Below are positions 1 to 31,969 of a DNA stretch of 33,802 bases, one piece after another. The position numbers and the translations under genes were made by a program. This stretch comes from Deltaproteobacteria bacterium (GTDB lineage Bacteria; Myxococcota; Myxococcia; Myxococcales; 40CM-4-68-19): contig JANYKT010000116.1 of assembly GCA_025358085.1 (NCBI GenBank), positions 1 through 33,802 of the forward strand. Reading direction: 5' to 3'. Position 1 is the stretch's first letter. The number at the start of each line of letters is the position of its first letter. A model generated the notes under the pieces. The model saw only the letters and a list, made by a program, of their open reading frames with translations, was not told the origin of the DNA and searched no databases.

Positions 1-445
1 AGCAGTAGGACTGGACATCGAAGAGGCGCCCGCCCGGGGGCAGCGTTCCTGCGCAGCTCGGATAGACCGGGTAGCAGGCCGCTGGCGTGAGCACGACGCC
101 GGTCATCTTTTGGAACCCGCTCCAGTCGCCGCGCTCCTTCACTTTCGCGAGGAGCGCGGCCTGCTCGCGATCCTTGCCCTCGAAGCTGAAGACGGTCCCG
201 GCGAGGTGCGGGAACGATTCGAGGTACCCGCTCTGCTCGAAGTTCTGCCGTGGCAGCGCCGGGGGAAAGCGCCAGACCTCGGCGCGCTCGTCCTGGCCGG
301 CCTCGGTGACGAGCCGCTCGATGCCCGCGACGATCTCCTCGAACGCGCCGCTGCGGCCGTAGACGCCTGGCGCTTCGGACGGAAGCAGCAGGTGCGCCGC
401 CACGAGCTCATCGTGGAACGCCTTCTGGTTCTCCGTATCTCCCAC
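1..445 (-). CDS. Amino acid:[carrier protein] ligase (class II aaRS paralogue), N-terminal part
   Basis: The 148 residues visible match, from memory, the N-terminal domain of the Bradyrhizobium/Agrobacterium amino acid:[carrier protein] ligases. These are seryl-tRNA-synthetase-like enzymes that adenylate glycine or alanine and load it on the phosphopantetheine of a small carrier protein rather than on tRNA. Matching landmarks are RFPP (59-62), QSGYLESFPHLAG (71-83) and PAACYPVYP (121-129). Cys124 aligns with the zinc-ligand Cys of that family. The gene runs off the left edge just before motif 2, so most of the catalytic core is not seen. The start is GTG at 445, 9 nt after the TGA of the dehydrogenase gene, with a GAGGGGG ribosome site between them, so translation is probably coupled. 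The upstream carrier protein and dehydrogenase support the call. Substrate cannot be read from this fragment. Confidence 0.85.
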   Translation of the reverse strand, partial: MGDTENQKAFHDELVAAHLLLPSEAPGVYGRSGAFEEIVAGIERLVTEAGQDERAEVWRFPPALPRQNFEQSGYLESFPHLAGTVFSFEGKDREQAALLAKVKERGDWSGFQKMTGVVLTPAACYPVYPSCAGTLPPGGRLFDVQSYC

Positions 446-454
446 TGGTCCCCC

Positions 455-1639
455 TCAATCGTCCTTGTGGACGAGGAGAAGCGAAGCGTTGGTCTGGTGG
501 ATGCGGTCGTTGTTGATCATCAGCGTCGCCGAGTGGGCGTCGCGGAGCTGCCGGCCGAGCGAATATTTCCCTTCGTTTTTGTAGCCCGCAATCCCGCAGA
601 TCTGCAGCGCCTGCCCGACGATCTGCACGGCGAGCTGCGACGACGAGATTTTCAGGTTGTTCATCTTCAGGACGAAGCCCATGTCGGTGAGCGACTCGTT
701 GTCGCTGCCCTGCATGCGCTCGTCCGACTCCTCGGCCACGTCAAAGACGTTGTTGCGCATGAGCTGCAGCGTGCTCGTCACCTCGGCGAGACGGAGCCCC
801 GCGGGCGGCATGGTGCCCGGCTTCTGGCGCGCGGCGGCCCGCACGAAAGCGCGCGCGCGGGCCACGGCGTCGGTGGCGATGCCCAGCCACAGGCCCGACC
901 AGAGGACGTGCGAGAAGGGGACCTGCGTCTGCGGCGCAATCTCGGCGAACGGCGTCGGCAGCACCTGCTCGAGCGAGCCCTGCGCCTCGACGAGCGCGGG
1001 CGGGCTCCGCGTGCCCCGCATGCCGAGCGTGTCCCAGGTCCCGACGTTCGAGAGCCGGTACGTCTCCTTCGGCAGGAAGACCATGACCTGATCTCCCGGC
1101 GCGGAATTCGCAGCACGCCGCGCGGTCAGGAGCAGCGCGTCGGCTTCGGAGCCGTACGAGATCGTGGTTGCGTCCTTGCGGAGCTTGAACCCGGCACCGT
1201 CGGTCTCGACGTGGCAGATGCTGCTGCGCAGGTCGCCCGACGTCCCCACTTCGGAGGTAACGGAGGCGATGAGAAGCTGCTCGGACGCGAGCTTGCCCAG
1301 GTAGCGTTCGAACCAGGGCTGCGGCAGCCCGTGGCGCACGAGGCTCGCCACCTGGATCTGGTGCATGGCGTAGACCATCGCCGAGTTCGCGCACTGCTGG
1401 CCGAGCACGAGGCACTGGCGGACGAGATCGGTGATCGAGCAGCCGTCGCCCCCCAGCTCGCGTGGAACGTAGCTGCTCAGGAGCCGCTCGTTGCGCAAGG
1501 CTTCGATGGATTCCGACGGGAAGCGCGCTTCGCGATCGACCGACGCTGCGTGCTTGCCTGCCACCGCAGCGACCCGCTGTGCGCGGAGCAGCGGAGCGTC
1601 AGCGAGTGAGAGCCCGGTCTTTGCGATCGAATCGTTCAA
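455..1639 (-). CDS. Acyl-CoA dehydrogenase-family flavoprotein of the amino acid-carrier protein module
   Basis: About 394 aa, the full length of the acyl-CoA dehydrogenase family: N-terminal helical domain (to about 115), beta domain with SEVGTSGD (129-136) and LGMRGTRSP, then a C-terminal helical domain with QIVGQALQICGIAGY. FAD binding is expected from the family. The usual catalytic Glu motif near the C-terminus (YEGT in MCAD) is replaced by MINNDR (374-379), so either the base lies elsewhere or the chemistry differs. A TTG at 1639 has a GAGG ribosome site 5 nt upstream. A longer TTG start at 1672, overlapping the carrier-protein stop, has no good site and is less likely. Position between a carrier protein and its ligase suggests that the substrate is carrier-bound aminoacyl or acyl. 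That is inference. Confidence 0.8.
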   Translation of the reverse strand: MNDSIAKTGLSLADAPLLRAQRVAAVAGKHAASVDREARFPSESIEALRNERLLSSYVPRELGGDGCSITDLVRQCLVLGQQCANSAMVYAMHQIQVASLVRHGLPQPWFERYLGKLASEQLLIASVTSEVGTSGDLRSSICHVETDGAGFKLRKDATTISYGSEADALLLTARRAANSAPGDQVMVFLPKETYRLSNVGTWDTLGMRGTRSPPALVEAQGSLEQVLPTPFAEIAPQTQVPFSHVLWSGLWLGIATDAVARARAFVRAAARQKPGTMPPAGLRLAEVTSTLQLMRNNVFDVAEESDERMQGSDNESLTDMGFVLKMNNLKISSSQLAVQIVGQALQICGIAGYKNEGKYSLGRQLRDAHSATLMINNDRIHQTNASLLLVHKDD

Positions 1640-1668
1640 GGCAGCCTCGTTTCGGCGGTTGCTCGGAG

Positions 1669-1911
1669 TCAACGGCCTGCCGTCAGCTCTTCGATCGCTG
1701 CCCGGATCGAGCCGGCGCTGCTGAAGACGCGGGCGCGCAGCATGCGGTCGGGAAACTCGATGTCGAACTCGCCCTCGAGCGCCAGCATGACGTTGACGCT
1801 CGCGTGGGAGCTCATCCCGGCCCGGTACAGATCCGCGTCTTCGGCCAGACCGGAGGAGTCGACCGCAAGCCCTCCGTGCTCTTCAAGAATCTTCCTGATC
1901 CGATCGATCAC
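1669..1911 (-). CDS. Acyl/aminoacyl carrier protein
   Basis: An 80-aa four-helix carrier protein. The phosphopantetheine site lies in DLYRAGMSSHASVNVMLALE. It follows the Gly-Met/Leu-Ser/Thr-Ser-His pattern of carrier proteins that partner amino acid:carrier-protein ligases, rather than the usual Asp-Ser-Leu, and Ser35 (counted from the start chosen here) is the expected attachment residue. The start is GTG at 1911, preceded by AGGGGG at 7 nt spacing. An in-frame GTG at 1950 would add 13 poorly conserved residues. Its stop lies just upstream of the dehydrogenase start, and the ligase follows, giving carrier - flavoenzyme - ligase in one transcript. It is divergent from the glycosyltransferase at 1995; about 80 bp between them must hold both promoters, but I see no clear -35/-10 pair. 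Confidence 0.87.
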   Translation of the reverse strand: MIDRIRKILEEHGGLAVDSSGLAEDADLYRAGMSSHASVNVMLALEGEFDIEFPDRMLRARVFSSAGSIRAAIEELTAGR

Positions 1912-1994
1912 AACGCTGCCCCCTGAGTTTCTGGACGCTGTTTCTACCACGCCGAAACTTGTGCGAGCCAGATCAGTTAAACTCCAGACCGCAC

Positions 1995-3068
1995 GTGCGC
2001 ACGCTCATCCTCGCAGCGGGACGTTTCGGGTCCCCACTCCAGCAGGAGATAGCCGCTGGCCGGGAACCCCGGCTGGATGTTTTCGAGCTGCGCGACGTGC
2101 TGGGCGCCGACGTCCTGGACCATGACAGCGTAGATGCGTCGCCGCTCGGCTCGGTGCGCGCGCTGCGCCGGACCGCCGGAGTCTCCGTTGCCCTGGCCTG
2201 GCTGGGCGCCCTCTCCGCGCCGCGCTACGACGCCGTCCTCACCACGGGCGAAGAGTTGGGCATTCCGTTGGCCGCGCTGCTCCTCGGCCGCCGCAAGCGC
2301 CCGGCGCATACGATGATCGCGCACACGCTCACGCCGTGGAAGAAGCAGATCTTCTTCCACGGACTGCGGGTGCAGTCGCGCATCGACCGCATCCTCTGCT
2401 ACGCGAGCAGCGAGGAGCGCCACATCGTCGAGCGGCTGGGTGTTCCCCGGCACAAGGTCGTCCGCATCAATTACCAGGCCGACGAACGCTTCTTCCGGCC
2501 GATGCCCGAGGTCCCCGTCGAGCTGGATCTGATCTGCAGCGCCGGGCAGCTTCTGCGCGACTACGACTGCCTGATCGCGGCGACGCGCGACCTGCCGGTG
2601 CGCGTGCACATCGCGGCCGGGAGCCCGTGGATCTCCCGCGAGCTCGGCCCCAGCGCAGCGCTGCCGCCCGGCGTCGACTGGAGGCGGTACAACCGGTACG
2701 ATCTGCGAGACCTGTATGCCCGGTCCGCGATCGCCGTCGTGCCAATCCTGCAGAACGATTACCAGACCGGCATTTCGACCATCCTCGAGATGATGGCGAT
2801 GGGGAAGTGCGTGATCGCGACGCGGACGCGCGGGCAGACGGACACGATCATCGACGGGGTCAACGGGGTCTATGTGCCGCCGGGCGACCCGCAGGCCCTG
2901 CGCGCTGCGATCGAGCGGCTGCGCGGGGATCCGGAGCAGGCGCGGCGCATCGGAGAGGAGGCGCGGCGGTTCATCGAACGCGAGGCGGGGCTGGGTGTAT
3001 TCGTCGAGCGGATCGTTGATACGATGCAACGCGCGCACCGCGATCTGTCGGGAGAAGAGGCGCAATGA
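1995..3068 (+). CDS. GT4-family glycosyltransferase
   Basis: 357 aa in the GT-B fold. The N-terminal half begins with a Rossmann strand followed by AAGRFG. The C-terminal nucleotide-sugar domain has the GT4 pattern: TGISTILEMMAMGKCVIATR, with the conserved Glu of the E-x7-E region, and then TIIDGVNGVYVPPGDPQAL. It probably transfers a sugar from a nucleotide donor on the cytoplasmic side; donor and acceptor are unknown. GTG at 1995 places the start at the first Rossmann strand. An in-frame TTG at 1959 would add 12 residues, and neither has a clear ribosome site. The stop overlaps the ATG of the next gene (ATGA), so the two are translationally coupled. The neighbouring polysaccharide genes make glycan assembly the likely role. 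Confidence 0.87.
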   Translation: MRTLILAAGRFGSPLQQEIAAGREPRLDVFELRDVLGADVLDHDSVDASPLGSVRALRRTAGVSVALAWLGALSAPRYDAVLTTGEELGIPLAALLLGRRKRPAHTMIAHTLTPWKKQIFFHGLRVQSRIDRILCYASSEERHIVERLGVPRHKVVRINYQADERFFRPMPEVPVELDLICSAGQLLRDYDCLIAATRDLPVRVHIAAGSPWISRELGPSAALPPGVDWRRYNRYDLRDLYARSAIAVVPILQNDYQTGISTILEMMAMGKCVIATRTRGQTDTIIDGVNGVYVPPGDPQALRAAIERLRGDPEQARRIGEEARRFIEREAGLGVFVERIVDTMQRAHRDLSGEEAQ

Positions 3069-5422: not shown

Positions 5423-6676
5423 TCAGGCTGCGGCGGCCGCTGGAACTGGTGGCGGTTGCGCCTGGCCTAGCCGCCTTCGCAATCGCGCGGCGGGCACTTC
5501 GATGAAGCGCTGGAGGATCTCCGCGAGCGCAATGGCGACGAGAAGCCCGATGGCGCCGCGCGCGGGAGGGAAGAGATGCGGGGCGCGCTGCTCGAGCACG
5601 TAGAGCACGACGTGATGAACGAGATAGAGGGAATAGCTCCGGACCCCGATGCGCCGGGGAAGCGGCCGGTTCAACCAGCGGAACGGCCACCAGCCCGGAT
5701 CGCGCATGGCGACGATGAAGATTGGGGTCAGCGCTACCCCTTGCATCGTGTAGCGGATCGTTTCCCTGAACCAATCGGCGCGATAGAGGAACGAGACGGC
5801 CAGCAGGACGACACCGGCAGGCAGCAACACGCGACGCAGCAGGCGCGACGCCGGGCCGGGCCGGTCGAGCATCGGATTGGCGCCCAGAGCGAGCGCGCAC
5901 CCGAACAGGATGGAATCGACGCGCGTGTCGGAAGCGAGGTACGTTCGATCGCTGTCCGCGTGCAGGATCAGCACGAGCGCGAGGCGCCAGAGGCAGACCG
6001 CCAGGGTGAGGACCAGCAGCACCAACGCCTGCGAGCGCTCGCGCTGTGGAAGTCGTCGTTGAAGTAAGATGAAGAGCGCGGGGAACAGCAGGTAAAAATG
6101 CTCCTCGACGGCGAGAGACCAGTAGACGGCCGTTCCCGGAGGCTGGCCGCTCGCCCCGTGAAAGACGTTCCAGTAATTGGAGAAATGAAAGACCAGGGCG
6201 AACATCGGGCGCGCCTGCAGCGTCCCGCGCAACAGGCCGCAGGCCACCAGCAGCGCGCTTGCGGCCAGGACTGTATAGAACGGTGGGAAGATGCGAAGGA
6301 CGCGCCGCAGATAGAAGTCGCCGAGACGAACCGTGCCGCTCGCGGCCTGTTCCATCCGCAACAAGGTCGTGATCAGGAACCCGCTCAGGAAGAAAAACAC
6401 GGTGACGCCGAAGCCGCCGGGGATGAACCCGCCGTAGCCTGCGTGGGCAACGAAGACGATCAGGAACGAGACCGCCCGGATCCCGTCGAGGCTGGGGATG
6501 TGAAATCCGCCCCGTGGAGCGGAAGCTGCCGGGGCTGGATGCGATTGCGACAGAGAATCCTCGGGTCTGGCGATCCGGGCAGTATCGCCAGCGGGCCACG
6601 GCGAAGGCAATGCGTTTAGCGAGTTCGCGCAGCCGTACTGCAAAGGTCTTCGAGCGCGCGCGTACAGGCCTCCCAT
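5423..6676 (-). CDS. Acyltransferase-3 family membrane O-acyltransferase (OafA-like)
   Basis: 417 aa with about ten hydrophobic segments. The family hallmark IPSLDGIRAVSFLIVFVAH sits at the start of the first helix, with the catalytic His at its end, followed by FFLSGFLIT and FYLRRVLRIFPPFY. The middle loop has YWSLAVEEHFYLLFP, which is also typical. Such proteins move acetyl or similar groups across the inner membrane onto periplasmic glycans or lipids. The ATG at 6676 overlaps the end of the upstream GT4 gene by 61 bp and has GGAGG 10 nt upstream. The conserved part begins only near residue 56, so a start nearer 6610 (TTG) cannot be excluded. It is the last gene of the twelve-gene minus-strand run. 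Confidence 0.9.
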   Translation of the reverse strand: MGGLYARARRPLQYGCANSLNALPSPWPAGDTARIARPEDSLSQSHPAPAASAPRGGFHIPSLDGIRAVSFLIVFVAHAGYGGFIPGGFGVTVFFFLSGFLITTLLRMEQAASGTVRLGDFYLRRVLRIFPPFYTVLAASALLVACGLLRGTLQARPMFALVFHFSNYWNVFHGASGQPPGTAVYWSLAVEEHFYLLFPALFILLQRRLPQRERSQALVLLVLTLAVCLWRLALVLILHADSDRTYLASDTRVDSILFGCALALGANPMLDRPGPASRLLRRVLLPAGVVLLAVSFLYRADWFRETIRYTMQGVALTPIFIVAMRDPGWWPFRWLNRPLPRRIGVRSYSLYLVHHVVLYVLEQRAPHLFPPARGAIGLLVAIALAEILQRFIEVPAARLRRRLGQAQPPPVPAAAAA

Positions 6677-7821
6677 CCGTACGCCGCCTCCACACGCTTC
6701 CTCGCTCGAAGTCCGAGGGCCGCCGCCTCGGCGGGCTGGCTCAGGAGCCGGACCACCGCCTGTGCGAAGTCTGCCGGAGCGTCGGCGATCAGCAGGTCCC
6801 GCTCGGTCGTCACGTCGAGCCCTTCTGCGCCGATGCTGGTGGCGACCACAGGCCGTGCAAGCGCCATGGCCTCGATGACCTTGAGCCGTGTCCCTCCGCC
6901 GATCCGGAGCGGCGCGATCGCCACCGCGGCACGACCCACCTCCGCCACCACGTCGGGCACGAAGCCCGCGATGGTCACGCCGGGAGGCGCGGCGATGTCG
7001 GGGGGCGGCGGCGGTCCCACGACGCGAAGGCGCGCCGTGGGCCGGGCGGCCAGGACGCGCGGCCAGATCTCGCCGAGGAAGAAGCGCAGGGCGTCCGTGT
7101 TGGGAAAGTAATTGTGCGCGCCGAAGAAGACTACGGTGTCCGGGTCGGGGGGGGCGGTGGGCGGCGCGAACTCCTCGAGATCGACGCCGTTCGGCACCAC
7201 CGCACAGAGCTTCCCGGGAACCTCGGCGTGGACCAGGGATTGGTCGCGGGACGAGGTGACGGAGACGCCGGCCGCTCCGCGCCAGGCCGCGACCTCCTCG
7301 CGCTTCAGCTTGCGCCAGTTTGCTTCGGCAAAAATCCGTCTCACGCCGTCCGCGCTGTTCGCGACGCGCCGCTGCAGGTCGAACTCGATGTTGTGCTCAT
7401 CGAGCACCACCGGGGGCAAAATCTCCCGCGGAACGCCGCGCAGGTTGGACGTCATCTGCACGAACTCGACCAGCAGCACGTCCCAGCGTTGCGCCGCGAG
7501 CTTCTCTCGGAGCTTTCCGACGAGCGGCTCGCTGCGATGCGAGATCAGATCCCAGCTGCGCGGGCGGAGCAGGGTGCCCAACTGGGCGAGGCGCTTGCGC
7601 CCTCCGACGAGCCCGAAAGGCGGCTGCGGAAAGACGCTGACGTCCGGACACCAGGCGCGGGTCGCCGCGGTCCACGCGCCAAGGTCGTCGAGCGGGTTGT
7701 GCAGCGCCAAAAGCGACAGCTCATGATCGCGCGCGAGCTGTTTCAGGATGCCCTGCAGTCGCCGCTGTCCGCCAAAGGTCGGCGGGCTCGGCAGATAAGG
7801 GACCAGCGCCAGGATTTTCAT
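6616..7821 (-). CDS. GT4-family glycosyltransferase
   Basis: 401 aa. The N-terminus has VPYLPSPPTFGGQRR, the glycine-rich acceptor-side loop typical of GT4 enzymes. The donor domain has FFGAHNYFPNTDALRFF, then AIAPLRIGGGTRLKVIEAMA and ARPVVATSIGAEGLDV, the conserved C-terminal GT4 block. This version resembles sugar transferases found in exopolysaccharide clusters. The ATG at 7821 overlaps the GH44 stop (ATGA). A longer reading frame exists upstream but is Pro/Arg-rich and lies inside the GH44 gene. Sugar donor is unknown. With the GT2 in the same operon and the GT4 at 1995, three transferases are visible; a first-step phosphosugar transferase is not. Confidence 0.9.
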   Translation of the reverse strand: MKILALVPYLPSPPTFGGQRRLQGILKQLARDHELSLLALHNPLDDLGAWTAATRAWCPDVSVFPQPPFGLVGGRKRLAQLGTLLRPRSWDLISHRSEPLVGKLREKLAAQRWDVLLVEFVQMTSNLRGVPREILPPVVLDEHNIEFDLQRRVANSADGVRRIFAEANWRKLKREEVAAWRGAAGVSVTSSRDQSLVHAEVPGKLCAVVPNGVDLEEFAPPTAPPDPDTVVFFGAHNYFPNTDALRFFLGEIWPRVLAARPTARLRVVGPPPPPDIAAPPGVTIAGFVPDVVAEVGRAAVAIAPLRIGGGTRLKVIEAMALARPVVATSIGAEGLDVTTERDLLIADAPADFAQAVVRLLSQPAEAAALGLRARKRVEAAYGWEACTRALEDLCSTAARTR

Positions 7822-9929
7822 CGGGAGGGCTTGAACTCGAGGACGGCCAACGACCAGGGGCGAAGGCGGAACCGGGAGGCAGGGCCCTGGAACTGTGAGG
7901 GCAGGAGGCCTTCCGCATCGGACAGGACCCAGGCTCCGGCCGGGGCGACGGCCCCGCACCCGGCCGTCTCCAATCCCAGGTCGAGGGCGGTCTCCGGATC
8001 GCGGTTCAAGGCGATGACCACCAGCTTCCCGTCGGGCGCCCGCGACGCGAACACCGACGCGAGCGCGTCGGAGCCGCCGCGGACCTCGATCGATTCGCTC
8101 CCGAAGGTGGCGCCCTTGCCGTCGTAGTTGCGGAATGCGCGAAACGCCCAGGCGGCCAGCGATCCCTTCTCGGGCCAGGGAAAGTAAAAAGCCGCGTCGA
8201 TGCCGAGGGTGCCGAAGTGGCCCAGCGCCTCGGCCAGCGCCAGCCCCCCGCTGATGTGCTTCTCCGCGCCGAAGTTGTACTCGCCGATCACAACGCCGAG
8301 CCCGGGGTATTCAGCGTCGATGGTCTTCCGGATTCGCGGAATCAGCATCACGGTGTCGTCGATCCAGGATTCGTCCCGGTAGGCCGGATCCCACAGCGAG
8401 CGCACCGCGCGCATCCTCCGCATCGCGGTGTCGCGATCGACGGCGCCATCGTGTCCCATACCGATGTTGGTACCTTGCGAATAATAATGGACGTCGACGT
8501 AATCCACCGTTCGCGATCCGCTCTTTGCGTCGTGCTCGCGCAGCCGCGCTAGCCACCACGGGAGCAGCGCTGCACCCGCGTGGCGGAGGCGCGACAGGGG
8601 TACGCCGGCAGGTCGCGCCTCTCCGGTATCGAAGAGCGATGGGTATCCCCAACCGGTAAACCCGGCGATTCGCGCCCGGGGATCTGCGCGGCGAATGGCT
8701 GCCGAGGTCTCCAGCGTGCGCTCCAGGAGCTCCTCATAAGTGACGGGTTGGGGGTGGACGTCGCGATGGGTCGAATTCCAGAGCGTAGGCTCGTTGTCGA
8801 GCATGTACATCGCCAGCGCCTCCTGGCCGGTGGCACGCAGCTCGCGTACCCATGGCTCGTTCGACGCCGGGCCTGCGGCGACGCTGGTCTGCTCGGGTCC
8901 GCGGGGAGCCAGGAGCGCGCCATCCCGCCCGACCCCGTCGCCGCAGTCGTTGCGGTACGGGTCCACCTTCCTCTGCGGCGGATAGAAGTCGGTGGAAAAG
9001 GCGCAGGATCGGTCGTCCTTCGCGATCCAGCCGATCATCGGAAGCGTGAACGCGATCTGCCGATGGTCCGCCTTCGCGTGTTCGACAAACGACCGCCAGC
9101 CCCCGCTCGGCTTGTCGCTGGACACGTTGCGAAAAAACCAGTCTGCGCCTGTGTTCCACGTCCCCAGTTTCCAGTTGTAACGGGTGCTCGTGTTGCCTCC
9201 CCAACGGAGGGCAGTGGCGCCGAGCTCGCTCGCCAATTGCGGGTCTCCCTGGGCGACGCCATAAATGAGGGGATTGATCGGGTGCGAGTGCTGGCAGTCC
9301 AGCACCGCGCCGAGCTTCCGCACCGGACCCAGCGAGGAATGCCTGACGGTGAATTCGGGCGGCTCGCGCAGCGCGAAGCCTACCGAGGAGATCTCGACCT
9401 GGTGCTCGCCAACTGCGGACGCCGCTCGCAGGGTGAGCCGATCGAACGGCTCGAGCGCCGGATTGAGCGAGTCCATCGAAATCCAGATCTCGGTCCAGCC
9501 GTCGGGCTGCTCCACGCGCGAGGCCTTGCCGGGGCGAACCCTGGGGAAGGCGTGGGCTGCCCGGGAATCGAGGGAGATCTCGAGAAAGTCTCCGTAAGCG
9601 GCGGGTGCGCGCAGCCGCAGAACGAGGCCGCCGAAGCCCGGTTTCACCGCGGCGTGGCCGAAGATCCAGCCGGCTGCTGCGGAGAAGTCGACGCGCGCTG
9701 GCTGGCCCGGGCTCAGCGTGTGCTTCGCCCAGCCCAGGTCCTTCCATCCGGCAGCGACCTGGCCGTCCTCGAGGACCGGCAGGTCCGATCGGAGTGGTGG
9801 GGACGCCGGCCCGCCCTCGGCTCTTCCAAGCCCTGAGTACGCGCCCAGGGCAAGTAGCCAGAGGACGGCCGCCGCGACGGGTCCGGGCCGCAGCCTGTCT
9901 GCGACTCCGGAAAAGGATGGAGCGGCCAT
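7818..9929 (-). CDS. Secreted glycoside hydrolase family 44-like endoglycanase
   Basis: 703 aa. An N-terminal signal peptide (hydrophobic 19-38) is probably cleaved near GRA-EG. Residues of about 55-195 form a beta-rich module, perhaps carbohydrate-binding. The catalytic part carries GH44 landmarks: HPINPLIYGVA, TALRWGGNTSTRYNW, MLDNEPTLWNSTHRDVHP and VVIGEYNFG. Glu380 (DNEP) is the expected acid/base and Glu550 (GEYN) the nucleophile; their spacing of 170 is close to that of the clostridial GH44 cellulase. The family cuts beta-1,4-glucans, xyloglucan or mannan. Placement inside a Wzy operon suggests trimming or release of its own polymer. ATG 9929 lies 4 nt after the stop of the upstream gene. 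A longer in-frame ATG at 9980 would overlap that gene and spoil the signal peptide. Confidence 0.85.
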   Translation of the reverse strand: MAAPSFSGVADRLRPGPVAAAVLWLLALGAYSGLGRAEGGPASPPLRSDLPVLEDGQVAAGWKDLGWAKHTLSPGQPARVDFSAAAGWIFGHAAVKPGFGGLVLRLRAPAAYGDFLEISLDSRAAHAFPRVRPGKASRVEQPDGWTEIWISMDSLNPALEPFDRLTLRAASAVGEHQVEISSVGFALREPPEFTVRHSSLGPVRKLGAVLDCQHSHPINPLIYGVAQGDPQLASELGATALRWGGNTSTRYNWKLGTWNTGADWFFRNVSSDKPSGGWRSFVEHAKADHRQIAFTLPMIGWIAKDDRSCAFSTDFYPPQRKVDPYRNDCGDGVGRDGALLAPRGPEQTSVAAGPASNEPWVRELRATGQEALAMYMLDNEPTLWNSTHRDVHPQPVTYEELLERTLETSAAIRRADPRARIAGFTGWGYPSLFDTGEARPAGVPLSRLRHAGAALLPWWLARLREHDAKSGSRTVDYVDVHYYSQGTNIGMGHDGAVDRDTAMRRMRAVRSLWDPAYRDESWIDDTVMLIPRIRKTIDAEYPGLGVVIGEYNFGAEKHISGGLALAEALGHFGTLGIDAAFYFPWPEKGSLAAWAFRAFRNYDGKGATFGSESIEVRGGSDALASVFASRAPDGKLVVIALNRDPETALDLGLETAGCGAVAPAGAWVLSDAEGLLPSQFQGPASRFRLRPWSLAVLEFKPSR

Positions 9930-9933
9930 CGGT

Positions 9934-10431
9934 CTACCGCCGGTCCATGACTGTGCACCCGACGAAGTGATTGCGGCCAATCTGCTCGAGGGTGCGCGAA
10001 GCGTCGTCGAGCCGGGTATCGCCGTATTCGACGCAGAGCAGCGCCGCGTCGCAGGCGAGGGCGATCGCCGTACCCAGCGGGTTGGTCGTGATCGGCTCGA
10101 TTACGATGAGCCGGCCGGGGACCCCGGGCCGGGGCGGCGCCTGCAGGGAAGACAGCAGGTCGGAGAGCTCGCTCAAGCCCATCCCCTCGGTAGAGATGAT
10201 CTGTAGCGCGCTCCCGCGGTGCATCTGCCCGATGGTGGCGAGGGCCTTGGCGAGCGAGAGGACCGAATCCGCGCGCTGGGTCGGCACCAGGGCGAGCGTC
10301 TGCCAGGGGCGCCGCAAGGTCGCGAACCAGAGCTCCTGCAGCTCCCGCGACGGCAGGCCGGTCAGCTCCGCGCGGGAAGCGGGCCTCACCAGCGAGGTGA
10401 CGGGTGCAGTCTTGGTGCCGCCGTTTCTCAC
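9934..10431 (-). CDS. Degenerate CpsD/BY-kinase-like P-loop protein (pseudo-ATPase)
   Basis: 165 aa. The order of segments follows the cytoplasmic domain of bacterial tyrosine kinases of the CpsD/CapB/Wze type: RELQELWFATLRR ahead of the first strand, TLALVPTQRADSVLSLAKAL where the Walker A loop should be, GRLIVIEP in the place of Walker B, and ACDAALLCVEYGDTRLDDA, which fits the later ADGVLLVV-type strand. There is no GK[S/T]; residues 49-58 lack both Gly and Lys. The Walker A' Asp is also absent (ALQIIS), and the C-terminus has no tyrosine cluster. ATP binding or autophosphorylation is therefore unlikely. GTG at 10431 overlaps the stop of the GT2 gene (GTGA). The probable role is a structural partner of the Wzz-type protein encoded three genes upstream. 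Confidence 0.7.
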   Translation of the reverse strand: MRNGGTKTAPVTSLVRPASRAELTGLPSRELQELWFATLRRPWQTLALVPTQRADSVLSLAKALATIGQMHRGSALQIISTEGMGLSELSDLLSSLQAPPRPGVPGRLIVIEPITTNPLGTAIALACDAALLCVEYGDTRLDDASRTLEQIGRNHFVGCTVMDRR

Positions 10432-11621
10432 TTCTGTCGTTCCCCCTGGCGCTGCGTTCGCACCCAGATGCCGCTGCCGCCCTGTTTGCCGCGGACCGCA
10501 AGGGTAGCCTTCCAGATGACGTATAGGGGGGAAACGGCAAGGTCAAGAAGGCCGCGCAGGCCGGTTCCCGAAAGGGACCAGCCCCGCAGGACGTACAGGA
10601 ACAGCGCGGCGGCGCAGGCCGAGTACAGCGTCGCTGCCGCGATCCAGTGCCCCGCCCGGCCGGACACCACCAGCGACACCACCAGGCCCAGCGCCACCGT
10701 CACGGCGATCTTCGCGAGCGGCGGGACCAGCACGTCGAATGCGAGATCGAGGAGGACCGGATCCTTCCGGCGGAGCGCGCCCGCGAGGAGCCTTGGGCCG
10801 TGGAGCCGCGCCATCTGCCGCCGCCCGCCTTCCCAGCGCAGTCGCTGCGACTTGCTCGCACTTCCGCCGGGGACCATCTCGCCCCAGACGTGGGCCTCTC
10901 CGGCGTACTGGATCCGGTGTCCCGCTTCGCCGATCTGGATGCCGAACTCGAGATCCTCGACGAGGGAGAACGCCCGATGCGGCACCTGCTCAAGCAGCGA
11001 CCGGCTGAAGCACATGCCATTGCCGCGCAGGCCGCAAGAGAGCTCGAGCCGCTCGCGGCCTCGCGAACGCAAGACGTGGAACGCACCCAGCGCGATGGCG
11101 ATGAGCCGCGTGCGCCACGATTCGTGCGGGTTCCGCACGCCGTAGTCCGCTTGGACGGCGAGGGCGCCAGCCTCGAGTCGCGCAGCAAAAGCGGAGAGAA
11201 GGTTGGCGGAGACGAGCGTGTCCGCGTCGACAACCACCAAGGCGTCGGCGTTGCCTTGCAACGAATGCTCGAAAGCGGCTTCCAGCGCGAACCCTTTTCC
11301 GCGCTTCTCCAGATCGACGCGCTCGAGCACTTCGGCGCCTGCGGCCCGCGCGCGCGCGCCCGTCGCATCCTGGCAGTTGTCGGCCACGACCAGCACGCGA
11401 ACCAGATTCCGCGGCCAGTCGACGGCGCGTAGGCTCGCGACGGTAGCCGCGATGCCGCGCTCCTCGTTGTGCGCGGGGACGATGAGGTCGAAGCGAAGAC
11501 GGCGTTCGAGCGCGGCCGGGGCCTGCGCCCGCGCCGAAGCGAGCGTCAGGATCAGGAGATAGAGGCATGCGAGCCCGACCGGCAGACCGCACACAAGGAG
11601 CGCCACGGTGAGGATCGTCAA
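10428..11621 (-). CDS. Membrane GT2 glycosyltransferase (processive-type)
   Basis: 397 aa. One N-terminal membrane helix (about 2-28) is followed by a GT-A domain: LIVPAHNEERG (47-55), VVVDADT with the metal-binding DAD at 132-134, VEDLEFG with the catalytic Asp near 223, and QRLRW (259-263). The Q-x-x-R-W motif is that of cellulose/hyaluronan/poly-GlcNAc synthase-type GT2 enzymes. Three more hydrophobic segments lie between about 295 and 373. It may extend the lipid-linked repeat or act as a partly processive synthase. The TTG at 11621 overlaps the polymerase stop (TTGA) and lies at the first hydrophobic helix; the open frame continues upstream without conserved sequence, and the exact start is uncertain. 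Confidence 0.85.
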   Translation of the reverse strand: MTILTVALLVCGLPVGLACLYLLILTLASARAQAPAALERRLRFDLIVPAHNEERGIAATVASLRAVDWPRNLVRVLVVADNCQDATGARARAAGAEVLERVDLEKRGKGFALEAAFEHSLQGNADALVVVDADTLVSANLLSAFAARLEAGALAVQADYGVRNPHESWRTRLIAIALGAFHVLRSRGRERLELSCGLRGNGMCFSRSLLEQVPHRAFSLVEDLEFGIQIGEAGHRIQYAGEAHVWGEMVPGGSASKSQRLRWEGGRRQMARLHGPRLLAGALRRKDPVLLDLAFDVLVPPLAKIAVTVALGLVVSLVVSGRAGHWIAAATLYSACAAALFLYVLRGWSLSGTGLRGLLDLAVSPLYVIWKATLAVRGKQGGSGIWVRTQRQGERQK

Positions 11622-13216
11622 GTGGCCCAACCCGATTCGGATGACCCTTTCGCCTCCGCCGCGCGCACGCGCGCCAGCTTGCGGAGCGAGGTTTCCCTCG
11701 GCACCCAGCGCCACGCGCCCGATTCGATCGAGAGCTTTCCGGCCATCAACATCGCCGGCGCGAGCGTGAAAGTCGTCAACCATTCGCTGACGCCGATGTC
11801 GCCGTAGGACTGATTCAGATGGAGATAGACGAGCACGATCGACATCAGCGCCGCTGTTCGCACTGCGGGATCCGCCGACCAATGGTAGGTGCGCGCCGCC
11901 AGAAACACCGTGGTCAGCAGCATGGCAAAGACCCCTGCGAACCCCAGCGGACCTGCGAATGGGAAGAACGCGACCAGGCTGTTGTGCGGGATGTATTTGA
12001 AGCGCGGATATGCTTGGGAAACGTCGGGCAGCAGGATCTTCTCGACGTATTCATGCCCGAAGCCGACCCCCCAGAAGGGATGCGCCGAGATGTTGAGCAC
12101 CAGGTTCATGTTTTCCAGGTCGCGCCAAAGGGTCGATCCGTCGCTCTTCGAATCCAGGACGGAACGGATGGTGGTGACCGGACGGAAGATCGTCGAGTAC
12201 GGAGAGTTCCACCCGGCGGCCAGGTAAAGCGCCGCGATGGGCAGGGAGATCAGGGCCACGCGCACGATGCGACGCTTCAGGGGCGTCCAGGTGCTGAGCG
12301 AGCCAGCGACGATCAGCCCGCCCACCAGCGCGACCCACACCAGGCGGCGGTGATTGAACACCATGCCCAGCAGGATGACTCCGGCGGCGACGAAGCGCGA
12401 CCAGTGAAAGGCGCCGCGCACGCGCTCATTCATCATCACCACCAGCAGGAGAATGGCGGCTGCGAAAAGTCTCGAATCGGCGTGGGTCGTCGAACACGCG
12501 AGGCGGCTGCCATCGGGGAAGCGGACAGTGTAATAGATATAGACGGCGAGCAGCGCGCGGTACATCGCCGAGCCCACAAGCACGAGTCCGAGGGTCCGGA
12601 GATCGCGCGATCCGCGATAGGCGCCGTGCATGAGGATCATCAGGAGGACGGAGTAGACGAGACGCTGGATCTGCGCCAGCGACTCGAAAAACTGGCCGCC
12701 GTTCGCCAATCCCCACGCCCAGAGCACGACCATGCTCACCATTGAGATGGCCGCGCCGATGACCATTGGTCGCGCGAGCGGGATGGTGCCCCGGGTGTCG
12801 ATCTCGACCCCCTTCGCGCGGCGCACCCAGTGAACGATGAGGAGATACACGAGCAGGATATCGAACCCGGTGAACTTCAGCGCCGCGACGTGTGTCACCA
12901 GGTTCAGGTTCCCGAGCAGAGCCTTGCCGATGATGCAGAACGGCGTAGTCCATTGGTAGACCGCGAATGCCTCGTAGGGCGCCTCCATGGTGACGCCGAG
13001 GATCAGCAGCGCGGTGACAGACCAGCGCAGCGGGATGACCCACACCAGCGCGAGCGCTCCGAGAGCGAGCATCAGTCCGAGGCAGGCCGCGATGTCTCCG
13101 CCCGTCACGAAATCCGCTACCAGTGCGACGACGCCCAGGCCAACGACGGTCGCTAGCGCGGCGCGGTCCACCCCGCGTGCGCGGGGCCTTTCAGGGCCAG
13201 CGGCCGGATTCGTCAC
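11618..13216 (-). CDS. Wzy-type polysaccharide polymerase / O-antigen ligase-like membrane protein
   Basis: 532 aa with about 12-14 hydrophobic segments and a large loop between about 330 and 405. In that loop SAHPFWGVGFGHEYVEK, followed by YIPHNSLVAFFPFAGPLGF, matches the Wzy_C (O-antigen ligase/polymerase) signature of a Gly-rich turn followed by His-Asn-Ser. Such proteins join lipid-linked repeat units in the periplasm, or ligate glycans to lipid A or protein. Position beside Wzz- and Wza-type genes favours polymerase over ligase. The GTG at 13216 overlaps the Wzz-type stop (GTGA) and the GT2 follows by a TTGA overlap, so three products are made from a coupled message. Confidence 0.87.
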   Translation of the reverse strand: MTNPAAGPERPRARGVDRAALATVVGLGVVALVADFVTGGDIAACLGLMLALGALALVWVIPLRWSVTALLILGVTMEAPYEAFAVYQWTTPFCIIGKALLGNLNLVTHVAALKFTGFDILLVYLLIVHWVRRAKGVEIDTRGTIPLARPMVIGAAISMVSMVVLWAWGLANGGQFFESLAQIQRLVYSVLLMILMHGAYRGSRDLRTLGLVLVGSAMYRALLAVYIYYTVRFPDGSRLACSTTHADSRLFAAAILLLVVMMNERVRGAFHWSRFVAAGVILLGMVFNHRRLVWVALVGGLIVAGSLSTWTPLKRRIVRVALISLPIAALYLAAGWNSPYSTIFRPVTTIRSVLDSKSDGSTLWRDLENMNLVLNISAHPFWGVGFGHEYVEKILLPDVSQAYPRFKYIPHNSLVAFFPFAGPLGFAGVFAMLLTTVFLAARTYHWSADPAVRTAALMSIVLVYLHLNQSYGDIGVSEWLTTFTLAPAMLMAGKLSIESGAWRWVPRETSLRKLARVRAAEAKGSSESGWAT

Positions 13217-14676
13217 GGCAGTGTGATTTCGGCAAGCACCTGCATTCCGAGGAGCCGCTCCACCTGCCAGCGCTGGTAGATCCGGCGCGAGCGCAGGTCC
13301 GTGATCACCGCGGCGCTGATCCCGAGGAGCACGCCGATGAGGCCGGCCGCGGTCAGCACCAGCGCGGGCTTCGGCTTGGTCGCGGTCAGCGGCACCGTCG
13401 CCGGGCGAAGGACGCTGTAGCGATACCGGAAGGCCGCGCGCTGCGTCTCGCGCTCCAACTCGACCGCGTCGATGCGCTCGATGAGCGTGGAGTAACGGCC
13501 CAGTTCGTACCGCAGCTCGCTCTTTGCTTGTTCGATCTCGGGCTGTTCGATCTCGTCGGTGGGGTTCTGCGTGAGGCGCAGCGCCTCCGCCGGGATGCCC
13601 GTGTTGCGGTTGCTGGCCGTGCGGGCGTCGAAGGCGGGTCCACCGAGAGCCTGGTATTCCTTCTCCAGCTTTCGATATTCCTCGCGCAGCGCGACGAGTT
13701 GTACCGGCTCCGAGGTCTGCTGCTGCCGGATCGTCTCCCGCAGGTCGATCACCTCAGGGTGGAACTCGGAGTAGGTCTGCTGCAGGCTAGCCATCTTCGA
13801 CTCAAGCTCGGCGACGTGCCGTCGCCGGAACTCCTCGAGCTCCTGGATCGCCTGCTGCTTGGCCTGCAGCGAGTCGCGCAGCCGCTGCAGCTCCGGATTC
13901 ATCGGCGGTGGGCGATGCACGACGGGCCGCGGAGCCTGCGCCGCGGCGGTCTTCGTTTTGACCGGGCCCCGCAGCGTCAACACCTTTTCGACCGACGCGC
14001 TCACCTTTTCCTTCTCTCCCTCGGCTCGGCTCTCGAGCAGGCCGATGGCCTCGGAGACCGCGGAGACCTCCTTGAACTGCCGCGCTTCGAGGAAATTTTC
14101 GTAGGCCGCGACTGTGAGCCGGTAGGCGGTCACGGCATCCCACCAATCGACCGAGATGGTCACCGTCTCGTCCGCGGTGGCGACCTCCAGCTGCTTTTCG
14201 AGGGTCCCGACGAGCATGTCCTCCTTGTCCTCCGCGGTCATGGGCTTGCGCACGAGGCGCACGATCTTGTCCTTGAGCGACTGGATCGGGGCCCGGTTCG
14301 CGTCCCAGGTCTCGGCGAGATTCGTCTTGCGCACCAGCGAAACGAGGTTGTCGGTGCGGAGCACCAGATCGCTGGCGGCCCGCGTGGGAGTGTCGAAGTC
14401 CCACGAGCGGTCGAGCCCGGCGAGCGTGCTGATCACCTGGTTCCGCTGCGCCTGGATCTTGATCTCCGCGTGATACAGCCGGGGCATCACGATAAGGCCC
14501 AGCCAGCCGAACAGCAGCATCCCCACGGCCACCTCCGCCGTCAGCGCGCGGTGGCGGCGTATGGCGCCAGCGACGAAGCCGCTGTAGTCGCGCAGCTTGG
14601 TGTAGTCGAAAAGGTCGGACTCCGCGCCCTCGATTTCCTGAGGAGGAAGCGGAACCGGAGATCGGTCGCCACTCAT
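13213..14676 (-). CDS. Wzz-type polysaccharide co-polymerase (Wzz/GNVR family), no kinase domain
   Basis: 487 aa. A short cytoplasmic head is followed by a first membrane helix (about 45-65). A long periplasmic part includes a strongly charged, Gln/Glu-rich coiled coil (about 275-350, with SEFHPEVIDLRETI as in the GNVR/Wzc periplasmic region). A proline-rich segment, ATVPLTATKPKPAL, leads into the second helix (about 435-456), and a 30-residue cytoplasmic tail follows. This is the PCP-2/3 layout that controls chain length. The tyrosine-kinase domain of Wzc is not fused; the only candidate partner in the operon is the degenerate protein at 9934. The ATG at 14676 has AGGGGG upstream, 18 nt after the stop of the small protein gene. 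Confidence 0.88.
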   Translation of the reverse strand: MSGDRSPVPLPPQEIEGAESDLFDYTKLRDYSGFVAGAIRRHRALTAEVAVGMLLFGWLGLIVMPRLYHAEIKIQAQRNQVISTLAGLDRSWDFDTPTRAASDLVLRTDNLVSLVRKTNLAETWDANRAPIQSLKDKIVRLVRKPMTAEDKEDMLVGTLEKQLEVATADETVTISVDWWDAVTAYRLTVAAYENFLEARQFKEVSAVSEAIGLLESRAEGEKEKVSASVEKVLTLRGPVKTKTAAAQAPRPVVHRPPPMNPELQRLRDSLQAKQQAIQELEEFRRRHVAELESKMASLQQTYSEFHPEVIDLRETIRQQQTSEPVQLVALREEYRKLEKEYQALGGPAFDARTASNRNTGIPAEALRLTQNPTDEIEQPEIEQAKSELRYELGRYSTLIERIDAVELERETQRAAFRYRYSVLRPATVPLTATKPKPALVLTAAGLIGVLLGISAAVITDLRSRRIYQRWQVERLLGMQVLAEITLP

Positions 14677-14694
14677 CGTGATTTCCCCCTGCGG

Positions 14695-14865
14695 CTAGAT
14701 CAACTTGAAATAGAAGTACTTGAGAGCGAGAACGTAGCAGAAGCAGAATACCACGTAGAAGAGCAGCGACCGCTTGAAGCCGCGCGATGGATTCGGATCG
14801 CGCGCCATCCGGACAGGGATGACGATCGCCATGATGATCGCCGAGAGAAGGAGCAGCTTGGCCAT
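14695..14865 (-). CDS. Small two-helix membrane protein (56 aa)
   Basis: A 56-aa reading frame from ATG 14865 to TAG fills the gap between the outer-membrane barrel gene and the Wzz-type gene. It has two hydrophobic segments, about residues 2-18 and 33-53, separated by a polar loop, ARDPNPSRGFKRS, with net positive charge. The second helix is rich in aromatic residues and Cys (LLFYVVFCFCYV). Codon third positions are mostly G or C, like its neighbours, and gaps of 10 and 18 nt fit the operon. The ribosome site is weak (GAAGG about 14 nt upstream), so it may be translated by re-initiation from the barrel gene. No family is recognised; a helper of the co-polymerase or polymerase is plausible. 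Confidence 0.65.
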   Translation of the reverse strand: MAKLLLLSAIIMAIVIPVRMARDPNPSRGFKRSLLFYVVFCFCYVLALKYFYFKLI

Positions 14866-14875
14866 GGGTTAAAGG

Positions 14876-16099
14876 CTACCTTCGCGCCACGCCGGGGAAG
14901 GTCCCCGTGAAGCCAGCCAGGACCGTCCATTGATGGACCGGATCCTCAGTGGGCCCGAGCAGGCGGGTGGGAGAGACGAGCGCGAGGCGGGTCCCGAGGT
15001 GAACGCTGGCGCTGGGCGAGAGCCGGTGCATGAGGGACGCATCCGCACCCGCTCCCCACGCGCCCGCGAGCGTGCCTCCAAGGATTCGATCACCTGATCC
15101 CGAGGCCGTGAGGGTCCAGTCCGGAACCGGCGACCAGGTCGCGGACAGGCGCGTCAGCCCGCGGAGATAGGTGACTCCTGAAAAAGGATCGAGAGCCGGC
15201 TGGACGTTGCCGTCTGCCGCGAAGCCGAGGTGCTGCGATCGGACCGGAATGTCCCATCCCAGGGATGCCTGCGCGGTAGGGGCCAGCAGCAGGTCGCCGG
15301 GATTCGCGAGGAGTCCGTTGGCTGCGGTAGCTGCCCCGTTGTACACGAGGGTCAACCCGACACCCGCCGTCGCCCGCACGTCCGGATCGAGGCTGCGCGC
15401 CCACCTCACCATGACATCGACGGCCCGCGACTGCAGGTCGGCGCCGGTCACCGACGAACGTCCGGTCGCCGTGAGCGCGACGCTGTTCAGCCGATCGAAG
15501 ATGTACGTTGCGTTGACGCCCAGGGTGGCCGAGCGCTGGAGGGGCAGCGTCGCGCGGCCGAAGCTTCCCTGGCCCCCTCCCACGGTGAAGGTCGCGCGCG
15601 CGTCCGCGACCAGCAGCCGCGAGAAATGCTCCAGCACAGACGCCGTCGTGCTGGACGACAAAGTCGAGATGAAGCGGCGTCTGGGCAACCGGTCGAGTCC
15701 GGGCTGTCCAGCCTGGGGCGGAGGAGGCGCAGTTCCCGCCAGCCCCGGTGCCAGGCCTTGCCCGAGCAGCGAGAAGTCCTGCTCGCCAAAGAGGAAGGTC
15801 TCGCTGAGCGAATAGCGCTGGGTTCCCTCGCGCAGGTCGAAGCTCGCGGTCGTTCCTTGAAAGTAGTTCACCTGCGAAACGCCGGAACCGTGCGGGCTGG
15901 AGAGCGCGAGGCGGGGAGCGTAGCTGAGGGCGAACGAGCCGTCCCCAATCGTGTCGGAGATCGACAAGAGCCCGCCGAGGACGCCGCTTCCATACGCGGA
16001 CGGCGACTGCACGTCGTTGCCGAGGGTGCTGTCCGCCGTGAGCGAGGTGGTGAGGATCGGCGCGCCCAGCGCAGCAATCGCTATGAGCACGCCAGCCAC
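14876..16099 (-). CDS. Outer-membrane beta-barrel protein of the export operon
   Basis: 407 aa. A short hydrophobic signal (about 1-20) is followed by a Gly/Ser/Thr-rich sequence with many alternating amphipathic strands, such as ATLGVNATYIFDRLNSVALTA and HLGTRLALVSP. The protein ends in a strand-rich tail. A proline-rich loop (TAPPPPQAGQPG, about 122-133) interrupts one hairpin. This is the composition of a large outer-membrane barrel. In Myxococcota and related groups such a barrel is often encoded beside a short Wza-type lipoprotein, where it may form the outer-membrane pore that Wza of E. coli forms alone. The GTG at 16099 follows the upstream stop by 3 nt, with GGAG at good spacing. Confidence 0.72.
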   Translation of the reverse strand: MAGVLIAIAALGAPILTTSLTADSTLGNDVQSPSAYGSGVLGGLLSISDTIGDGSFALSYAPRLALSSPHGSGVSQVNYFQGTTASFDLREGTQRYSLSETFLFGEQDFSLLGQGLAPGLAGTAPPPPQAGQPGLDRLPRRRFISTLSSSTTASVLEHFSRLLVADARATFTVGGGQGSFGRATLPLQRSATLGVNATYIFDRLNSVALTATGRSSVTGADLQSRAVDVMVRWARSLDPDVRATAGVGLTLVYNGAATAANGLLANPGDLLLAPTAQASLGWDIPVRSQHLGFAADGNVQPALDPFSGVTYLRGLTRLSATWSPVPDWTLTASGSGDRILGGTLAGAWGAGADASLMHRLSPSASVHLGTRLALVSPTRLLGPTEDPVHQWTVLAGFTGTFPGVARR

Positions 16100-16102
16100 G
16101 CT

Positions 16103-16729
16103 CTACTCCACCACGACGGAGTCGCCGGACTGCAGGGCGAACGCGGTCGCGTGCTCGTCGCCCCGCGTGAGGGCATCCCAGGTGAAGCGGATGCGCTGGA
16201 TCGGCGCTGCGCGGCGGAGTACGAAGATGCGGTCCCGGTGCGCGTATTCAGTCACGCCCCCGGCGGCGAGCAGCGCCTTCAGGACGCCGGCGCCGCGCTC
16301 GATCGTGACGATGCCCGGCTTGAGGACCTCGCCACCTACCGGTACGGTCAGCGGCTGGACCTCCTCGACCGCGACGCTGACCACCGGCAGCTTGAGGAAC
16401 TCCTTGAAGCGGGTTTCCAGCTGCTGGCCGAGCGTGGTCGGGTTGTAGCCGGCGGCCTCCACGTCGTTCAGCAGCGGCAGGGTGATGCGGCCGTCCTCGC
16501 GGACGCGCGCCTTCGTCGTGAGAGCGTCCTGGTTATAGACGCGAACGAGAAGCTGGTCGCCGGGGCTGATGACAAACCCGCGCTCGGACGCATGGGGCAT
16601 CGGGTAGTCATTGACCCAGACGAACTTGCCCACGTCGGCACAGGCCGACACGGCGAGTGCGGCTGCAAGGAACATTGGTGAAAGTCTCAAGGCAGTCCCG
16701 GGGTCGTAAGGAGTGGTCGGGCTTCTCAC
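16103..16729 (-). CDS. Wza-type polysaccharide export lipoprotein
   Basis: 208 aa. The signal peptide has a lipobox ending LAVSAC. A polysaccharide-export domain begins SPGDQLLVRVYNQDAL and continues with VREDGRITLPLLNDVEAAG. One SLBB-type domain follows (VPVGGEVLKPGIVTIERG, then VLKALLAAGGVTEYA). It is much shorter than E. coli Wza (about 380 aa): it has a single SLBB domain and lacks the C-terminal amphipathic helix that forms the outer-membrane pore. The barrel encoded next may supply the pore. The GTG at 16729 overlaps the upstream stop (GTGA), as elsewhere in this operon. A TTG at 16690 would give a tidier signal peptide and is a real alternative. Confidence 0.9.
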   Translation of the reverse strand: MRSPTTPYDPGTALRLSPMFLAAALAVSACADVGKFVWVNDYPMPHASERGFVISPGDQLLVRVYNQDALTTKARVREDGRITLPLLNDVEAAGYNPTTLGQQLETRFKEFLKLPVVSVAVEEVQPLTVPVGGEVLKPGIVTIERGAGVLKALLAAGGVTEYAHRDRIFVLRRAAPIQRIRFTWDALTRGDEHATAFALQSGDSVVVE

Positions 16730-18753: not shown

Positions 18754-18778
18754 GACCCTGTTTCCCCCTGTCCAGATT

Positions 18779-20152: not shown

Positions 20153-20194
20153 TGCCCCTCCCTAGATGAGAGCCTATCAAAGAACGCCCTTGCC

Positions 20195-20210
20195 GGCCAT
20201 TGGAGTGCCA
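20195..20210 (-). promoter_or_regulatory. Candidate sigma-54 promoter of the twelve-gene operon
   Basis: Reading the minus strand from 20210, the sequence TGGCACTCCAATGGC has the -24 element TGGCAC and a -12 element TGGC, with the GG and GC dinucleotides at the fixed sigma-54 spacing. It differs from the consensus TTGC at one base. Transcription would start near 20184, about 30 nt ahead of the ATG at 20152. Sigma-54 control is common for surface genes in Myxococcota. No enhancer site was identified. Confidence 0.45.
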
Positions 20211-20303
20211 GCGGCCAACCGACAGGTTCGGGGCTGCATTCCCTCAATGGCTTGAGACGGAACGGTAGCCCGGGCCGGCGCGCTCTCATGTTATGGGACC
20301 CTG

Positions 20304-20912: not shown

Positions 20913-20995
20913 AGTAGACCGCTGCGCGCTGCGGTCCAGGAATGCTATACCTCCCGGAATGGGCGCGTCTCGCTCCAACGTTCCCTTTGATTCGT

Positions 20996-24849: not shown

Positions 24850-24855
24850 CGTAGG

Positions 24856-31912: not shown

Positions 31913-31939
31913 CCGAGGCCCTCTACCAAGCGTTGGAAT

Positions 31940-31969
31940 CTTATAAGCCCCTCGCCGGCCTGGTGTCAC
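31940..31969 (-). promoter_or_regulatory. Sigma-70-like promoter of the 14-haem cytochrome gene
   Basis: On the minus strand GTGACA (31969-31964, five of six matches to TTGACA) is followed after 18 bp by TATAAG (31945-31940, five of six matches to TATAAT). The ATG at 31912 lies 27 nt further on. This is an unusually good match in GC-rich DNA and indicates that the cytochrome has its own transcript. The -35 box overlaps the stop codon of the small upstream ORF. Confidence 0.6.

Follow-up and report, generated by a model that had tools for sequence, protein, structure and literature searches.

The window, the whole stretch of 33,802 nucleotides analysed here, corresponds to contig C98 in the draft genome (5.4 Mb) of a member of the Myxococcota, and its position 1 is the first base of that contig. 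Three genes at the left edge, on the minus strand (1-1911), encode a carrier protein, a flavoprotein and the beginning of an amino acid:[carrier protein] ligase (Table 1). The initial annotation had described these genes as a triad; all three are indeed present, but the unit is larger and comprises at least five genes. The carrier reading frame starts with GTG at 1911 and stops with TGA at 1671-1669, and a possible TTG start of the flavoprotein gene overlaps this stop codon (TTGA). The ligase gene starts with GTG at 445, 9 bp past the flavoprotein stop, and is open at position 1 after 148 amino acids. Such spacing suggests that the module genes form one coupled transcript.

Table 1. Features of the window, with positions, strand and the basis of each assignment.
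Feature	Position	Strand	Basis
Amino acid:[carrier protein] ligase, N-terminal half (truncated at contig end)	1-445	-	PDB 4h2w/3mey
Acyl-CoA-dehydrogenase-fold flavoprotein	455-1672	-	Pfam PF02771 and PF00441, AF2 model, Foldseek
Carrier protein, 80 aa	1669-1911	-	NF005480/PRK07081, PDB relatives, phosphopantetheine site
Divergent glycosyltransferase, GT4 type, 47 bp from carrier gene start	1959-3068	+	PF13692 (63 bits), PF00534 (54 bits)
Membrane acyltransferase of polysaccharide locus	5423-6676	-	PF01757 (89 bits)
Wzx/Wzy-type polysaccharide locus	6616-22525	both	Pfam scans
GT4	6616-7959	-	Pfam
GH44, endoglucanase type	7818-9980	-	Pfam
GT2	10428-11882	-	Pfam
Wzy	11618-13216	-	Pfam
Wzc-like	13213-14676	-	Pfam
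Wza/Poly_export	16103-16729	-	Pfam; Poly_export domain at G000:C98:16367-16588
MauG-type di-haem peroxidase	18779-20152
Hexapeptide transferase	20304-20912	+	Pfam
Wzx	20942-22525	+	Pfam
DUF6875 protein and ATP-grasp protein	24106-26196	-
ATP-grasp protein	24856-26196	-	Amide-forming type gene
Multihaem MtrC/MtrF-like cytochrome	30179-31969
LamB/YcsF and carboxyltransferase A/B genes	32349-33802

The module is divergent from a glycosyltransferase gene, as had been stated from the sequence at the outset. It was also said to lie close to acyl- and amide-forming enzymes; a membrane acyltransferase and an ATP-grasp protein are present, but neither is conserved in the module. The ATP-grasp gene lies next to a gene for a DUF6875 protein just past the polysaccharide genes. 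The GH44 gene and a gene for a MauG-type peroxidase lie inside the polysaccharide locus, a multihaem cytochrome gene lies to its right, and the right edge of the window holds the usual 5-oxoprolinase set. In the Shinella module locus (L119), a cellulase gene is found beside genes for an O-antigen ligase and GumC. No amino-sugar biosynthesis gene was identified in the window.

The carrier protein, with its GMSSHAS site, was confirmed by a score of 96.1 bits with the NCBIfam model NF005480 (PRK07081; cutoff 72). Ser35 in this motif, the phosphopantetheine site, is invariant among orthologues. The PDB relatives of the carrier, at E 4e-14, are Atu2571 (2jq4) and chain 4h2w_C, an 'Aminoacyl carrier protein' co-crystallized with its ligase. 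Immediately ahead of the carrier gene, some Myxococcota (L021, L103, L104-L108) have a gene for a phosphopantetheinyl transferase (ACPS), perhaps as a dedicated activation step. In 33 loci from Paraburkholderia (e.g. L067 7476-8012), the carrier gene is preceded by a GNAT acetyltransferase gene encoded on the other strand.

The truncation of the ligase gene follows from the window beginning where its contig begins. The missing part was found on a second contig of the same genome, C80, whose last 132 bases (G000:C80:29674-29805, equal to L003 7675-7806) match window positions 1-132 in the same orientation with 91% identity. The nucleotide differences in this overlap are mostly silent, with a single amino-acid difference. 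From this end, C80 carries the C-terminal half of the ligase gene and the genes for a DUF1839 protein and a GH2 glycosidase, all in one direction, followed by an alpha/beta hydrolase gene in the opposite direction. Since the genome contains one DUF1839 gene and one split ligase (one N-terminal and one C-terminal piece), and relatives carry the same genes unbroken, the simplest reading is that C80 and C98 are adjacent parts of one locus. As judged from the 91% overlap, strain variation probably broke the assembly inside the ligase gene. A second, paralogous copy of the ligase was also considered as the source of the mismatch and is less likely given the single DUF1839 gene and the single pair of ligase pieces. 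Because the two halves lie on contigs that overlap at 91%, the exact full-length protein is not observed. C80 further encodes a type I polyketide synthase with KS, AT, KR, DH, ACP and TE domains (L116 10838-17035) and, further left, a GT4 glycosyltransferase (L116 3122-4351).

The proposal that the truncated gene encodes a class II synthetase paralogue was upheld by both halves. For the N-terminal half (148 aa), the PDB search gave E 9e-26 with 4h2w and 3mey, entries for Bll0957 (amino acid--[ACP] ligase 1), and the half on C80 matched PDB entries at E 1e-65; by itself, the latter scored 313.9 bits with NF005479/PRK07080, for which the cutoff of 357 applies to the whole protein. Six residues (C124, E167, C270, R150, E152 and R277) are conserved across 96 aligned ligases. 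In HMMER alignments, C124, E167 and C270 correspond to C131, E176 and C279 of Bll0957, its zinc ligands; R150 and E152 belong to class II motif 2 and R277 is the motif 3 arginine. Only the predicted zinc ligand Cys124 lies within the window, and the other active-site residues are on C80. The active site is thus not lacking: C80 supplies motifs 2 and 3 as well as the two other zinc ligands. Counting the C80 half, these alignments support a ligase of a biochemically known family with its active site kept. Homologues of this ligase activate an amino acid with ATP and load it onto the phosphopantetheine of a carrier protein. In Sorangium cellulosum So ce26 (L024 6591-19277), a ligase with 54% identity occurs without the DUF1839, flavoprotein or GH2 genes; it adjoins genes for an ornithine-cyclodeaminase-like protein, an ABC transporter and an amine oxidase; here the ligase has a different use.

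A scan of 84,980 species genomes yielded 80 close ligase loci. The genome's own order added 10 close and 5 distant ligase loci, giving 90 close loci and 95 scanned loci in all. The gene order carrier, flavoprotein, ligase, DUF1839, GH2 was present in about 85 of the 90 close loci and recurs in Myxococcota, Burkholderiales and Alphaproteobacteria; on plasmids from Azospirillum sp. B510 and Shinella, annotated independently, the genes are arranged identically. By gene, the 95 scanned loci contained the carrier in 86, the flavoprotein in 87, DUF1839 in 87 and GH2 in 85 cases, and where a gene was missing, the contig was cut, the locus was one of three variants, or the ligase was one of the 5 distant ones. 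In the 145 genomes that make up this order, DUF1839 occurred in exactly the 11 with a close ligase, with a chance probability of 1e-16 if the genomes are taken as independent and their relatedness is ignored. The edge of the window is thus probably the start of a conserved operon of carrier, flavoprotein, ligase, DUF1839 and GH2 genes, often with an alpha/beta hydrolase gene nearby; the product of this operon would be a sugar unit bearing an aminoacyl group, probably destined for the Wzx/Wzy polysaccharide encoded next to it.

The DUF1839 member of this operon lies beyond the window edge. The DUF1839 protein on C80 scored 406.7 bits with PF08893 (cutoff 22.5), while its profile gave nothing significant against PDB by sequence. 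An AlphaFold2 model was built for the L021 orthologue (326 residues, 54% identical to the C80 protein) and reached a mean pLDDT of 90.9. All 14 of its Foldseek matches to PDB at E <= 0.001 are AziU3, CtaG or CcbD, with full-length alignments of 323-369 columns and moderate TM values of 0.50-0.61. C29 is invariant and opens a helix, a placement typical of papain folds, and T129 and H147 (query numbering) are conserved. A published classification puts DUF1839 among papain-like proteins, gives its triad as Cys-(Thr/Ser)-His and suggests a possible role in glycan processing from genome context (PMC10318531). CcbD passes carrier-tethered proline to its own cysteine and then to the amino group of a thiooctose, an amino sugar (PMC12945683), and CtaG is described as a peptidyl transferase between carriers (PMC6772006). 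Because the model best matches these proteins, and CcbD acylates an amino sugar, DUF1839 is very probably the transferase of the operon, the enzyme that would deliver the amino acid to a sugar. The conservation of C29, T129 and H147 suggests that its triad may differ from that of CcbD: Cys-Thr/Ser-His is reported for DUF1839, Cys-His-Glu for CcbD and, judging from mutant names, apparently Cys-His-Asp for CtaG, and the acid position of a Cys-His-acid triad is not evident from the conserved residues or model of DUF1839. A solo DUF1839 gene with no ligase or carrier gene nearby was found on the conjugative plasmid p3 of Rhizobium sp. NZLR1 (L120 14962-15948), which, like the moderate TM values and the differing reported triad, counts against the preferred explanation.

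The GH2 protein resembles beta-mannosidases. E414 and E495 are conserved in 85 orthologues and align with conserved glutamates of the beta-mannosidase 6bye; since both catalytic positions are kept, the enzyme should be active as a glycosidase or transglycosidase. A bifunctional alpha/beta hydrolase is encoded near the module in about half of the loci. It resembles TIGR03100/TIGR03101 and scores below the cutoffs of these models, and an association with exosortase A was rejected.

The flavoprotein had been called acyl-CoA dehydrogenase-like, which holds for its fold and domains but not for the classical catalytic residue. Both the N-terminal (PF02771) and C-terminal (PF00441) Pfam domains of acyl-CoA dehydrogenases scored above cutoff, and Foldseek confirmed this fold for an AF2 model with a pLDDT of 87.6. 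None of the NCBIfam models scored above cutoff, and the RedW model gave a weak match. A true acyl-CoA or acyl-carrier dehydrogenase forming a dehydroamino acyl group is, for this step, possible and somewhat doubtful. Besides the Pfam assignment, it agrees with the Foldseek ranking, in which dehydrogenases stand level with TdsC/DszC monooxygenases. Against it, the aligned catalytic Glu (EGT position) is replaced by Asn-Asn-Asp-Arg, with N377, D378 and R379 invariant in 39 orthologues; an IVD-type alternative Glu site was placed by eye only. Searched as a single sequence against PDB, the flavoprotein best matched the sugar N-oxygenases KijD3 and DnmZ, although the matches are mixed, with acyl-CoA dehydrogenases at similar scores. 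Further, were the substrate glycine, as is presumably so for Bll0957, an alpha-beta double bond could not be formed. The invariant N-D-R, together with KijD3 and DnmZ among the nearest solved relatives, makes oxygenation plausible, and the flavoprotein may tentatively be considered a candidate for modifying the carrier-bound amino acid by oxidation or N-oxygenation.

The association of the module with polysaccharide genes was surveyed with home-made profiles from the data set (undecaprenyl-phosphate sugar transferase, GT4, GT2, Wza, Wzc, Wzx, Wzy, ManC and polysaccharide deacetylase). Of the 90 close loci, about 70 had at least one glycan gene no further than 10 kb away and 58 had two or more, a few of the counted matches being weak (35-68 bits; L026, L030 and L066). 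As a control, Poly_export was seen within 10 kb of the ligase gene in 8 of 38 genomes versus 0.35 expected from density; Burkholderiales are over-represented, so that significance values overstate independence. The sets of glycan neighbours differ between Paraburkholderia, Cupriavidus, Stappiaceae-type Alphaproteobacteria, Shinella and three myxococcal genomes (the window, L021 and L110). The expected co-occurrence with glycan genes thus holds far above chance in several lineages, but not in all. About 20 of the 90 loci have no recognized polysaccharide genes within 10 kb, and none were recognized near the module in the Myxococcota L104-L108, L101, L102 and L109 or in Azospirillum B510; the acceptor in such loci may therefore not be a polysaccharide. 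Since modules such as those of L104-L108 and Azospirillum B510 stand without recognized glycan genes close by, the module moves in part independently of a glycan cluster, yet the GH2 glycosidase travels with it almost everywhere. The association is real but not obligatory.

These exceptions bear on a rather unlikely alternative, in which the same chemistry makes a small diffusible or membrane aminoacyl-glycoside (a natural product, glycolipid or signal) and polysaccharide genes are close because sugar precursors or regulation are shared. It would explain the Myxococcota and Azospirillum loci without close polysaccharide genes, and all three DUF1839 fold matches are natural-product enzymes. Also in line with this alternative are the polyketide synthase gene on C80 and the separate cluster, with transporter and oxidase genes, that holds the So ce26 ligase. 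However, several lineages that differ in their surrounding genes carry the module amid Wzx/Wzy/Wza/Wzc genes. Aminoacylation of a surface glycan or lipid had been suggested initially; the glycan part is backed by the nearby genes and the DUF1839 fold, while for lipid A or other lipids no supporting gene was found and this destination was rejected.

Aminoacylation of a surface sugar is not a new idea, as a note added in proof in 2010 (Biol Direct 5:48; PMC2922099) already predicted amino-acid ligation to a cell-surface sugar amine for the same neighbourhood: a StRS paralogue, ACP (carrier), a redox enzyme, the highly conserved uncharacterized Atu2574, a glycosidase and liposaccharide genes. We infer that Atu2574 is a DUF1839 protein. 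This paper was the only literature found on Atu2571-2575, and no test of its prediction was found in the open-access literature, although subscription journals could hold one. Carrier proteins that receive amino acids from relatives of tRNA synthetases have been recognized since 2010, and these ligases and carriers form an established family (Mocibob 2010, 2013, as cited in PMC9437257). The destination of the carrier-bound amino acid was said at the outset to be generally not known, and a 2022 review agrees, still calling the biological role of aminoacyl carrier proteins unknown (PMC9437257). What is new here is that the module is described in full for Myxococcota, that its co-occurrence and its linkage to glycan genes are quantified, and that DUF1839 is assigned from its structure model as a probable carrier-dependent transferase.

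It is considerably less probable that the aminoacyl carrier feeds another pathway, such as that of a peptide or an oxidized-amino-acid precursor, with DUF1839 acting as a thioesterase or peptidase. Acyl-CoA-dehydrogenase-fold enzymes that oxidize carrier-bound amino acids are known for proline, and this precedent and the RedW match are compatible with such a pathway. A link to nonribosomal peptide synthesis was proposed in the original ligase biochemistry, so far as that work is reported in PMC2922099. In contrast, recurring peptide-assembly genes were not seen near the module, a GH2 glycosidase almost always accompanies it, and the folds matched by DUF1839 are mostly amide-forming, one with a sugar.

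For the preferred aminoacylated sugar unit, four steps may be proposed. By analogy with its homologues, the ligase would activate a small amino acid with ATP and load it onto the carrier phosphopantetheine. The flavoprotein might then oxidize or N-oxygenate the bound aminoacyl group. Cys29 of DUF1839 would accept this group for transfer to a sugar intermediate, at an amino group or perhaps at a hydroxyl, a step modelled on CcbD in celesticetin biosynthesis from the fold, conserved residues and co-occurrence. Finally, the beta-mannosidase-type GH2 enzyme could trim or remodel the decorated glycoside. In its most specific and rather speculative form, the proposal is that an oxidized (e.g. N-hydroxylated) amino acid is put as an amide on an exopolysaccharide sugar by the ligase, carrier and DUF1839 in several proteobacterial lineages and Myxococcota. 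If true, the oxidized-aminoacyl amide would be a widespread, chemically unseen glycan decoration. Naming DUF1839 as the likely transferase, with an amino-sugar precedent, makes the role of these carriers testable in vitro, and glycan analysis is feasible in culturable Paraburkholderia, Roseibium or Azospirillum.

Several known systems resemble parts of this scheme. Bll0957 and Atu2573 from Bradyrhizobium and Agrobacterium, with their carriers, share ligase and carrier families, zinc ligands, class II motifs and, according to PMC2922099, types of neighbouring genes with the module, whereas the ligase here is from Myxococcota and its gene is split over two contigs. Compared with the pathway in PMC2922099, the conserved open reading frame is here DUF1839, with a predicted CcbD/CtaG/AziU3-like fold, and is quantified across many genomes. 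Lincosamide synthetase (CcbD/LmbD with the CcbZ or LmbN carrier domain) likewise uses a carrier-bound amino acid, a papain-like transferase and an amino sugar acceptor, the last of which is presumed here. It differs in loading by an NRPS adenylation domain instead of a class II synthetase paralogue, in a product that is an antibiotic and not a surface glycan, and in its Cys-His-Glu triad. The BtrH/BtrI pair of butirosin biosynthesis performs a papain-like, acyl-carrier-dependent transfer to an aminoglycoside amine, as is proposed here, but by sequence DUF1839 matches BtrH_N only weakly, under the cutoff at E 6e-4. The delivery of glycine to lipid A by AlmEFG and of D-alanine to teichoic acids by DltABCD likewise brings an amino acid via a carrier protein to a surface glycoconjugate; the loading and transfer enzymes of these two systems are from families unrelated to those of the module and offer an analogy only.

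A variant module without DUF1839 was found in an Acetobacteraceae MAG (L039 5087-9473) and in Paracraurococcus (L066 9609-13808). It contains genes for the carrier, the ligase, an alpha/beta hydrolase and a membrane acyltransferase (Acyl_transf_3), and the latter might replace DUF1839 as the transferase.
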